Below, piece by piece: positions 14,753 to 18,591 of a stretch of 64,000 nt of DNA (its first letter is position 1; every line of letters starts with the position of its first letter). Position numbers and translations under genes: made by a program. This stretch comes from Serratia marcescens (GTDB lineage Bacteria; Pseudomonadota; Gammaproteobacteria; Enterobacterales; Enterobacteriaceae): contig NZ_VFMJ01000001.1 of the NCBI RefSeq assembly GCF_006715005.1, positions 4,030,001 to 4,094,000 of the forward strand, written 5' to 3'. Under the pieces are notes generated by a model, which worked only from the letters and a program-made list of their open reading frames with translations, was not told the origin of the DNA and ran no database searches.

Positions 14753-14779
14753 GAAAGTTAATTTTCTTAAAAACCATCA

Positions 14780-14799
14780 GGCCCGCGCACGCGGGCCTG
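14780..14799 (+). terminator. Hairpin between convergent ispB and the Mu-c-like gene
   Basis: AGGCCCGCG-CA-CGCGGGCCT is a perfect inverted repeat without a good T tract. It lies between the ispB stop and the end of the opposing gene, and may act with the weaker AAGAAA/TTTCTT hairpin at 14752-14770. Confidence 0.45.
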
Positions 14800-14800
14800 C

Positions 14801-15166
14801 CTAGGTATTGCTCTCTTCGTCAATGCGCGCCAACAGGCCGCCAATCCCTTCCCGCATCAGGAAAGCCACCATTTTCTCGCGCTCGCTCTCCGTCAAATGG
14901 TAGTAATACTCGATCCAGACCGCCAACGGATCCTGACGCTCAACGTCATATGCCGCCCCGTCTTCCTTCAGCACCAGCAGATTACGCACGTCTGAAGGCA
15001 GGCTGTCGATGTGGTACTCCAACGCTTTTCCCTGCACGCCTTTACGCCTGCGGCTGATCCAGCCTTCGCGCCGGGCCATCAGATTGATTCCCTGTGGTGA
15101 GGAAGGTAATCCTGCGATGCCTGTCAGTTCCTTGGCGGCAAACCACTCGTTTTTCATAGCCATCAT
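14801..15166 (-). CDS. Phage Mu repressor c-like DNA-binding protein
   Basis: 121-residue protein. The first 60 residues (KNEWFAAKELTGIAGLP..GINLMARREGW..RRRKGVQGKALEYHIDSLP) match the winged-helix N-terminal DNA-binding domain shared by phage Mu repressor c and MuA transposase; the order W-(x)n-GLP-(x)n-A(x)3GW-(x)2R(x)2GVxG(x)A(x)EY(x)3S(x)P is the same as in Mu c, as I recall it. The rest (SEREKMVAFLMREGIGGLLARI) is short and helical; the long tail of Mu c is missing and there is no DDE nuclease domain, so this is a regulator and not a transposase. It lies divergent from the Ner-like gene sfsB, exactly as c and ner lie in Mu. Start could be any of three close ATGs. Confidence 0.8.
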   Translation of the reverse strand: MMAMKNEWFAAKELTGIAGLPSSPQGINLMARREGWISRRRKGVQGKALEYHIDSLPSDVRNLLVLKEDGAAYDVERQDPLAVWIEYYYHLTESEREKMVAFLMREGIGGLLARIDEESNT

Positions 15167-15225
15167 CTCTGGGCAATAGTGGGCAAAGTCATTTTTGGAA
15201 ATTACTTGGGTATTTTTTTAGAAAT

Positions 15226-15305
15226 TTAGTGGTATTCTGGTTTCCGAATAAGCGATTCACGTTGTGCAAACGCCTAACCTTGACCCGTTAGTTATACCAC
15301 TAACG
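15226..15305. promoter_or_regulatory. Operator-like repeats between c-like gene and sfsB
   Basis: The 10-mer TTAGTGGTAT at 15226-15235 recurs inverted as ATACCACTAA at 15294-15303. The second copy is part of a perfect palindrome with arms CGTTAGT (15286-15292) and ACTAACG (15299-15305) around a 6-base centre. A TTGACC (15280-15285) abuts the palindrome. The arrangement suggests binding sites for one or both flanking Mu-type regulators. Confidence 0.5.
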
Positions 15306-15337
15306 CAACTTTGGCTAATCAGAAAAGGAATGTAAAC

Positions 15338-15598
15338 ATGAATTCAAGGAACCCAGATTGGCATCCGGCAGATATCATCGCGGCGCTACGCAAACAGGGC
15401 ACCACGCTGGCAGCAGTGTCGCGCAAGGCCGGATTAAGCTCATCAACGCTGGCCAACGCACTGTCGCGCCCGTGGCCAAAGGGGGAATGGCTGATCGCCG
15501 AAGCGATAGGCGTCCACCCTTCGGAGATATGGCCAAGCCGCTATTACGATCCCCGCAGCGATTGCCTGCTGGATCGCAAGGCACGCATCAAATCGTGA
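15338..15598 (+). CDS. sfsB: Ner-like DNA-binding transcriptional regulator SfsB (Nlp)
   Basis: 86 residues. DWHPADIIAALRKQGTTL followed by SSSTLANALSRPWPKGEW and IWPSRY is the full Ner fold: a lambda-repressor-type helix-turn-helix as in phage Mu Ner. E. coli SfsB (Nlp) can increase maltose gene expression in cya mutants. The ATG at 15338 has an AAGGA site 10 bases upstream; a TTG further up would add 9 residues without similarity. It sits beside ispB as in E. coli, but here it faces a Mu c-like gene. Confidence 0.92.
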   Translation: MNSRNPDWHPADIIAALRKQGTTLAAVSRKAGLSSSTLANALSRPWPKGEWLIAEAIGVHPSEIWPSRYYDPRSDCLLDRKARIKS

Positions 15599-15608
15599 AC
15601 GCGGGGCA

Positions 15609-15641
15609 AAAAAAAACCGCCGGAACAGGCGTCCGGCGGCG
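15609..15641 (-). terminator. mdh terminator
   Basis: Minus-strand hairpin CCGCCGGA-loop-TCCGGCGG (15617-15639) followed by nine T residues, 25 bases beyond the mdh stop. Confidence 0.85.
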
Positions 15642-17540: not shown

Positions 17541-17943
17541 AACCTGGCGCTAACAAAGTGCGGCTGTAGCCCGCACTTTGTTAGCGCTTCTTTAACCCTC
17601 GCGTTACCTTTCCTACCTTCAAGCGCGTTTAACACTGCTTTTCTATTCCTCAACAACACATTTCCATGACATCTCCATGTAACCAGCAGTACCCACTGTG
17701 ATCTTCCGCACTTTTGGTCAAAATCACTTACCTCATTGAAATCACATAAATTTAACATCAAAAGATCGTTTTATGAGCGTTTTTTATTCCTTACGGTTAT
17801 AAAAAATAAGGATCATGAGGTTAAAGTTTCACTAGCAACTGTTAGCGAACTATTAATTTTTCGCGTTACTAGCTGTATACTCATTTTCGTGAACTGAATC
17901 ACAGTTCGTTGGAACTGATAAAAGAATACGATGAGGTGAGATG
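17541..17943. other. argR-yhcN intergenic region
   Basis: 403 bases. It starts with the long argR terminator. The rest is AT-rich and holds no open frame that I can support. A -10-like TATACT near 17875-17880 and a GAACTG/CAGTTC hairpin at 17890-17906 precede the yhcN ribosome site and may form its promoter and leader. Confidence 0.5.
17547..17595 (+). terminator. argR terminator
   Basis: Perfect 17-bp stem (17547-17563 with 17571-17587) around a 7-base loop, followed by TTCTTTAA. Unusually long for an intrinsic terminator. Confidence 0.8.
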
Positions 17944-18207
17944 ATGAAAATTAAAACTACCGTTGCAACCCTGAGCGTTCTGTCCATGCTTTCATTTGGT
18001 GCATTCGCAGCACAATCTGTTGACGCAACTCAAGCCGCAAAACTGCAGCCGGCCGGTGTGATCACCGTAAGCGGCGTCGCCGCTGCGCCTTCCGACATTC
18101 GTCAGGCGCTGTCCGACAAAGCTGACGCCAAAGGGGCGACCGCCTACCGCGTGATCGAAGCGCGCAATGACGGCAACTTCCACGCGACCGCTGAAATCTA
18201 CAAATAA
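17944..18207 (+). CDS. yhcN: YhcN-type DUF1471 periplasmic protein (copy 1)
   Basis: 87-residue secreted protein: signal peptide about 1-22 ending AFA, then one DUF1471 (YhcN/BhsA/McbA) domain with ITVSGVAAAPSDIRQALSDKAD and the closing ATAYRVIEAR..HATAEIYK. Relatives respond to peroxide, acid and biofilm growth, but no biochemical activity is established. GAGG at 17933-17936 fits the ATG at 17944 better than the one at 17941. Next to argR as in E. coli. An extra copy follows 120 bases downstream. Confidence 0.9.
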   Translation: MKIKTTVATLSVLSMLSFGAFAAQSVDATQAAKLQPAGVITVSGVAAAPSDIRQALSDKADAKGATAYRVIEARNDGNFHATAEIYK

Positions 18208-18327: not shown

Positions 18328-18591
18328 ATGAACATGAAAACTACGCTTGCTGCACTCGGTTTGCTGTCTGTCATCTCCTTCGGCGCGTCTGCCGCCCAGT
18401 TAGTGACTAACGATCAGACCGCCAACCTGCAATCTATCGGTACCATTACCGTCAGCGGTATCGACGGGGCGCCGACCGACATTCGCCAGGCGTTGTCTGA
18501 GAAAGCCGACGCGAAAGGCGCAACCGCCTACCGCGTGATCGAAGCGCGTAATGAAGGCAACTACCACGCCACCGCCGAGATTTACAAATAA
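18328..18591 (+). CDS. YhcN-type DUF1471 periplasmic protein (copy 2)
   Basis: 87 residues, 62 identical to the upstream YhcN copy by my hand alignment. The signal peptide and linker have diverged while the DUF1471 C-terminal half is almost unchanged (DIRQALSEKADAKGATAYRV and HATAEIYK). AAGGA precedes the ATG by 8 bases. Likely a tandem duplication; shared terminator downstream. Confidence 0.9.
   Translation: MNMKTTLAALGLLSVISFGASAAQLVTNDQTANLQSIGTITVSGIDGAPTDIRQALSEKADAKGATAYRVIEARNEGNYHATAEIYK

Follow-up and report, generated by a model that had tools for sequence, protein, structure and literature searches.

Between ispB and mdh on the chromosome of Serratia marcescens, two short genes of phage type lie back to back over a common spacer, which raises the question of whether a viral decision switch has here become part of the host. 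A preliminary description had proposed that the decision module of a Mu-like phage was kept at this place as a host circuit, and the conservation of the pair as a divergent unit across genera supports this proposal. We consider it probable that sfsB and the second reading frame, which we call X, once served a Mu-type transposable phage as its c/ner decision module and now form a chromosomal toggle with promoters that face each other. In the window, by which we mean the whole stretch of 64,000 nucleotides that was analysed, the two reading frames were confirmed to diverge from one spacer of 171 bp, with the following layout:

14778-14799, minus strand: terminator-like hairpin directly after X, towards ispB (hairpin scan)
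14801-15166, minus strand: X, open reading frame of 121 codons, c-type repressor homologue (reading frame list, domain profiles, similarity to phage c, AlphaFold model)
15167-15337, no strand: shared control spacer, 171 bp (spacer alignments)
15338-15598, plus strand: sfsB, Ner-type regulator of 86 aa (PF13693, Ner and EnrR structures, place beside ispB)
15616-15640, minus strand: terminator-like hairpin between sfsB and mdh (hairpin scan)

The two hairpins compare with 1.2 expected for the region, and no structured RNA was matched at the Rfam gathering threshold between 14000 and 16700.

The 121-residue frame had been described as carrying a Mu-type winged helix, and the profile search on which that reading had been staked beforehand found the domain well above its cut-off (PF02316, HTH_Tnp_Mu_1, 52.9 bits against 23.3). 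The YfeC-like profile PF07037 is matched as well (39.6 bits, cut-off 22.9), and no NCBIfam model is matched at E≤1. The winged helix occupies approximately residues 8-68 and is followed by C-terminal helices at 80-90 and 93-120; judged from its relatives, the protein probably starts at Met-2 or Met-4, which gives 118-120 aa. By sequence, the solved relatives of X are Mu A (1tns, E 2.4e-11) and Mu c (1g4d, E 3.3e-8), and when an AlphaFold model built on 28 sequences (pLDDT 82, pTM 0.49) was compared with the PDB, just 1tns (Mu A) and 1qpm (Mu c) among 418 matches at E≤10 reached E≤0.001. The similarity to phage repressors extends beyond the winged helix: the PhiR68_1 repressor is 38% identical across X residues 4-120, D108 c is 34% identical over 125 columns (X residues 1-115), and the match to phrog_7148 spans residues 1-118. 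As judged from these alignments, X is a homologue of the Mu-type c repressors over its whole length. This refines the preliminary description, which had named a Mu c/MuA-type domain: the alternative that X is a fragment of MuA is rejected, because X aligns with phage c in its C-terminal part too. An anti-phage defence system was also considered and rejected, with no PADLOC match at E≤0.01.

The neighbouring protein, for which we took the ATG at 15338 as the start (the reading frame list has an upstream TTG at 15311), is Ner-like as had been claimed. It matches PF13693 (HTH_35) with 126.8 bits against a cut-off of 25, and by sequence its PDB matches are EnrR (7f9h, E 1.4e-20) and Ner (1neq, E 2.2e-20). 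The idea needs refinement here as well, as an earlier report already describes the co-option of Ner as SfsB and the complementation of sfsB by ner (PMC8987985). The score against the NCBIfam SfsB equivalog NF007670 is 127 bits, below the cut-off of 150 bits, and we use the name SfsB because of the place beside ispB as in Escherichia coli, not because of this model. The E. coli protein, SfsB (Nlp), shares the place beside ispB and the PF13693 domain but is without a divergent partner: the order in K-12 is ispB-sfsB-murA, without X, in line with what had been stated at the outset. EnrR of Edwardsiella and ner of Photorhabdus temperata are likewise host regulators of the Ner family, and the available portions of the reports on them mention no c-type partner. 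A literature search of open-licence papers found neither a c-type partner of sfsB nor the intact, conserved pair described. SfsB-type genes can be numerous, with eleven matches in one genome of genus g11 (G286) and seven in another (G177).

In the window genome, PF02316 matches only X and a 69% identical paralogue, X2, both short frames (138 and 119 aa), and PF13693 gives a single match. We therefore see neither MuA nor a Mu-like prophage genome-wide by these two profiles, which extends the earlier remark that MuA is absent from the neighbourhood of the pair.

Is the pair more than a chance neighbourhood? When 295 genomes of the order were searched with X, 58 matched at E≤1e-4, and 26 of these have a full-length X, defined as a best match of at least 100 residues and more than 60 bits. 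An SfsB-type gene lies divergently beside the full-length X in 25 of the 26: eight in f1, the family of the window, 16 in f27 and one in f5, two other families of the order. The sole exception is G022, from the further family f22, which has X without SfsB; of the remaining 32 genomes, 12 have YfeC-like genes and the others shorter matches of the phage c or MuA kind. The pair adjoins ispB in f1 and f5 and is found at proQ-prc in f27, and it is thus a unit kept together at two host loci. In all 16 f27 loci (L012-L017 and L019-L028) the arrangement is sfsB<>X-proQ-prc, with X directly upstream of proQ and prc (gene names from reading of the sequences), and X may therefore share a transcript there with the RNA chaperone ProQ. 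Named genomes gave 160 loci with X, and the best 80 of these include 68 in which a divergent sfsB stands beside X at ispB, from Serratia, Yersinia, Photorhabdus, Xenorhabdus, Providencia, Edaphovirga, Fukatsuia and some metagenome-assembled genomes; of the 12 left over, eleven are X2, the paralogue in Serratia, and one ends at a contig edge. The random and separate placement in relatives that would have spoken against the proposal is accordingly not what is seen. Tandem second copies of X occur in, among others, Photorhabdus, Xenorhabdus, Providencia, Yersinia ruckeri, Y. nurmii, Y. pekkanenii, S. rubidaea and S. silvae.

If X and SfsB control each other, the DNA between them should carry the signals. 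The candidate elements in the spacer of the window are:

15192-15203, plus strand: TTTTTGGAAATT, first RGAAA element (GGAAA at 15197-15201), candidate X site (spacer comparison)
15215-15226, plus strand: TTTTTAGAAATT, second RGAAA element (AGAAA at 15220-15224), 23 bp after the first (spacer comparison)
15230-15238, plus strand: TGGTATTCT, predicted extended -10 of the sfsB promoter (TGNTANNNT pattern at a constant place)
15241-15245, plus strand: TTTCC, right arm of the RGAAA...TTTC dyad (dyad pattern count)
15287-15304, no strand: GTTAGTTATACCACTAAC palindrome, candidate SfsB operator (most conserved stretch of the spacer)
15291-15299, minus strand: TGGTATAAC, predicted extended -10 of the X promoter, within the palindrome (sequence; TG(G/A)TATA at X2)

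Among 26 aligned spacers, the palindrome is the 18-column stretch with the highest conservation (1.76 bits per column, where the mean is 0.91), and the part with AGAAA and TGGTA is the second most conserved stretch. For a full tally we took all 103 ispB-side f1 loci with both genes, which yielded 76 distinct short spacers of 150-187 bp, all except one of 169-187 bp, and five long ones. Both the TGNTANNNT extended -10 pattern facing sfsB and the palindrome pattern are present in 75 of the 76 short spacers; the one short spacer without an exact form of either is from S. microhaemolytica (L101). The spacings are nearly constant, with 10-11 bp from the last RGAAA to the sfsB -10 in 70/76, 10-11 bp from this -10 to TTTC in 64/76 and 57-58 bp from it to the palindrome in 71/76. 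The second RGAAA element is the left arm of a dyad around the sfsB -10, RGAAA N14-17 TTTC, which occurs in 66/76 short spacers and has 16 bp between its arms in the window; in a count of 73 distinct spacers it was found in 65, compared with a mean of 0.9 and a maximum of 4 in 200 shuffling trials, to which no probability is attached since the spacers are related. In the window taken by itself, inverted repeats are not above shuffles (P 0.17). A sigma-70 scan that includes the -35 element finds no promoter in the spacer, and the -10 patterns are loose, so that it is their fixed place that speaks for them. The palindrome is absent from the five long spacers (511-682 bp; 0/5), from the single f5 spacer (0/1) and, as the GTTAGT palindrome, from the 16 distinct f27 spacers (0/16). 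The f27 spacers all carry the sfsB-facing -10 pattern (16/16) and a loose X-facing -10 (16/16), and the last RGAAA lies 8 bp before the sfsB-side -10 in 15/16.

On the strength of these conserved and constantly spaced promoter- and operator-like elements, we infer that X and SfsB regulate each other. The predicted sfsB promoter (-10 at 15230, plus strand) and the predicted X promoter on the minus strand face each other, which with putative start points would give leaders that share about 40 bp. X would repress sfsB by binding the RGAAA sites together with the dyad of RGAAA and TTTC on either side of the sfsB -10, and SfsB would repress X by binding the palindrome in which the X -10 lies. The outcome would be a double-negative, autoregulated toggle resembling Pe/Pc of Mu, and such a circuit might be bistable. 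In Serratia the toggle may also reach the orphan X2, which carries an X-type promoter.

The X2 loci and the loci that lack X allow these elements to be considered separately. In all 12 Serratia loci inspected, X2 is flanked by a GGDEF/EAL-type gene and an alkA-like gene (names from reading of the sequences; the former matches partially in L077, L078 and L080), and sfsB is not beside it. Upstream of X2 the palindrome is kept at 14-16 of 16 positions in 12/12, 92-103 bp before the start, together with the X-facing TG(G/A)TATA (12/12), whereas the sfsB-facing -10 is found in 0/12, a lone pattern match in L077 being far upstream. That a copy without sfsB should keep the palindrome and the X -10 and be without the sfsB -10 supports the toggle. 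The RGAAA/TTTC dyad is present at 6/12 X2 loci with arms 16 or 17 bp apart, and we count the six copies without it against the toggle. At three X-less loci of genus g6, the order RGAA-RGAAA-TGnTAT-TTTCC persists at sfsB and the palindrome is missing; there the -10 follows the last RGAAA by 9-10 bp and TTTCC follows the -10 by 19-20 bp, compared with 10-11 bp in the pair spacers, and this difference in spacing also weighs against the toggle. At the nine remaining ispB loci without X, no RGAA/TTTCC array of this kind is visible by eye, which likewise counts against the toggle. Taken with the X2 loci, this pattern would fit, without proving it, an assignment of RGAAA/TTTC as a site of X or YfeC and of the palindrome as part of the X promoter.

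Across 30 Serratia genomes, the palindrome with at most one mismatch was found at 43 sites in 29 genomes (13 for the reversed control), and 42 of the 43, which are related by descent, precede X or one of its paralogues by approximately 90-125 bp. The one site away from X-family genes is at G320:C1:1118672-1118687. When up to three mismatches were allowed, the window genome gave 21 sites, compared with 45 of the reversed control; because the control is the commoner, only X and X2 stand out in this genome. In each of eight other genomes the control had more matches than the pattern, so that the scan says little there. As a general SfsB site the palindrome is unsupported: the DNA before sfsB agrees with it at no more than 10-12 of 18 positions at 12 X-less ispB loci, and at 11-13 at three further SfsB-type loci elsewhere.

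These observations bear most directly on a one-way circuit, in which X binds both the palindrome and the RGAAA dyad, autoregulates and represses sfsB, and SfsB acts on distant genes only. Since the palindrome vanishes together with X, X could itself bind it; that it accompanies X-family genes, is present at X2 with no neighbouring sfsB and is poorly matched at the 12 X-less ispB loci would all be accounted for. However, Ner-type proteins bind inverted repeats such as the one before D108 ner, and the palindrome, which overlaps the X -10, sits about where that repeat precedes ner in D108. Furthermore, the motif of YfeC is TTC-rich, unlike GTTAGT. We regard a one-way circuit as a possible but rather unlikely account, and continue to favour a toggle in which each protein represses the other.

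The comparison with phages addresses where the toggle came from. In D108, as here, a Mu-type winged-helix repressor is divergent from Ner, over a spacer of 185 bp (199 bp in PhiR68_1). An inverted repeat, CCGTGAGCTAC/GTAGCTCACGG, ends approximately 24 bp before ner of D108 with the loop TATAAA read towards c, and PhiR68_1 has a similar repeat at the matching place without TATA; the Serratia palindrome lies at about the position of the D108 repeat. The RGAAA/TTTC elements and the TGNTANNNT pattern are both missing from D108, and the agreement is therefore one of layout, not of sequence. The operator and -10 sequences of Mu and D108 differ from those of the Serratia pair, which is chromosomal and is accompanied by no A, B or other phage gene; D108 c has 174 aa compared with 121 in X, which lacks about the last 50 residues. 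It has been reported that the Pc and Pe promoters of Mu and B3 are divergent or overlapping (PMC3820752, PMC9936078). In four other Mu-like phages, the repressor that faces Ner is annotated as one of another type, so that the c/ner combination is one particular type. No phage donor of X was found among 50,697 phage records, in which the best match is 38% identical. Seven IMG/VR contigs encode relatives of X, none of them a clear phage donor: by their neighbours, L272 and L273 have MuA as well as c and ner, L268 and L269 look chromosomal and have proQ-prc, L267 resembles the chromosomal loci with its sfsB and two copies of X, and the neighbours of L270 and L271 gave no assignment. We suggest that the pair descends from a phage rather than from an ancestor shared with phages, and that the rest of the phage would have been lost after capture.

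A second known relative of X is YfeC of E. coli. YfeC/YfeD share a similar winged helix and a C-terminal motif with X; YfeC is 34% identical to X over 96 aa and set apart from it in the tree, and its gene stands beside gltX with no Ner neighbour, whereas X adjoins sfsB. In the available part of the work on its binding sites, YfeC recognizes TTC-rich inverted repeats 6 nt apart (PMC8464067), compared with the 14-17 bp between the arms of the RGAAA/TTTC dyad, a difference that also counts against the toggle. The bit scores of X are 78.6 and 58.9 with phage c and 45.1 with YfeC, and a branch with a support of 100 separates 14 Yfe rows from X plus phage c, in trees built on few columns, where branches are long and many forks are open. 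As far as these scores and trees indicate, YfeC is a more distant, chromosomal relative of X than phage c. An E. coli YfeC query matched 12 of 23 f1 genomes at E≤1e-29, exactly the 12 YfeC-like genomes without X; of the eight with X, four matched weakly, at X itself, and four not at all, and three genomes of 1.0-1.2 Mb have neither gene. X and E. coli-type YfeC are thus mutually exclusive in f1 (8 versus 12), which in such related genomes may reflect a single evolutionary change. sfsB is beside ispB in 10 of the 12 YfeC genomes, and in G208 and G218 the best-matching locus is elsewhere.

The presence of sfsB alone at ispB in other genomes of the family would be expected if sfsB had settled there first and a YfeC-type gene had landed beside it later, the likeness to Mu being convergent, and the weak trees leave the order of events unfixed. 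However, a divergent pair with a spacer of similar length also occurs at proQ-prc in f27 and beside ispB in f5, X scores higher against phage c than against YfeC, and the branch of support 100, though long, parts YfeC from X and phage c. We therefore think it improbable that the pair was assembled independently, and retain the capture of a phage module as the origin of the toggle.

X was matched in 30/30 Serratia genomes, and in 28 of them the best match is without a stop; the exceptions are G322, in which X has one stop, and G321, in which it is in pieces. For 15 Serratia loci, omega was estimated by NG86 from 105 possible pairs, with undefined dS or dS ≤0.05 dropped, and the medians are low for both genes, 0.10 for X (102 pairs) and 0.057 for sfsB (76 pairs), values that are rough as the median dS (1.18 and 1.34) is near saturation. 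The corresponding medians for neighbouring genes are 0.043 for ispB (105 pairs), 0.031 for mdh (105), 0.021 for argR (91) and 0.044 for rplU (88). While both genes are of phage type and degraded copies occur in small or symbiont genomes (G321, G322, L085), it is very improbable that the pair is a functionless, decaying relic of a Mu-like prophage, given stop-free copies of X with an omega of about 0.1, conserved control elements, the occurrence in several genera and no other Mu-type gene in the genome by PF02316 or PF13693. Serratia symbiotica L085, which like G321 and G322 is a reduced genome, has sfsB and mdh in pieces.

It is known that hosts take over single phage regulators, SfsB among them. 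Here, a two-gene decision circuit and its control DNA have apparently been kept as a unit in several genera and at two loci, so that a viral decision switch now appears to be an ordinary part of a bacterial chromosome, of which E. coli kept just half in place. SfsB and YfeC of E. coli are poorly understood regulators, for which the pair supplies a partner and candidate sites, and it provides a testable switch in bacteria whose Ner-type proteins are already tied to phenotypic switching. In Photorhabdus temperata, a Ner-type gene affects form switching, as cited in the consulted part of PMC7905540. The same part of that paper describes XreR1/XreR2 of Photorhabdus luminescens, two phage-type regulators with a proposed epigenetic switch, of which XreR2 is Ner-like; both are, however, XRE-type, are clustered with a ccdAB-like operon and are other proteins than X and SfsB (PMC7905540). 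More speculatively, and with a good deal less confidence than we place in the toggle itself, the ancestor of these Enterobacterales might have possessed the whole c/ner toggle, which E. coli-type lineages would then have split, YfeC being the displaced or substituted repressor half and SfsB the anti-repressor half, the two still communicating in trans. Where the pair is intact, it could act as a heritable bistable switch that sets population states, for example the primary and secondary forms of Photorhabdus.

Elsewhere in the window, at 17941-18207 and 18328-18591, two adjacent genes encode proteins of 88 and 87 aa with signal-like starts, which by eye resemble tandem duplicates.
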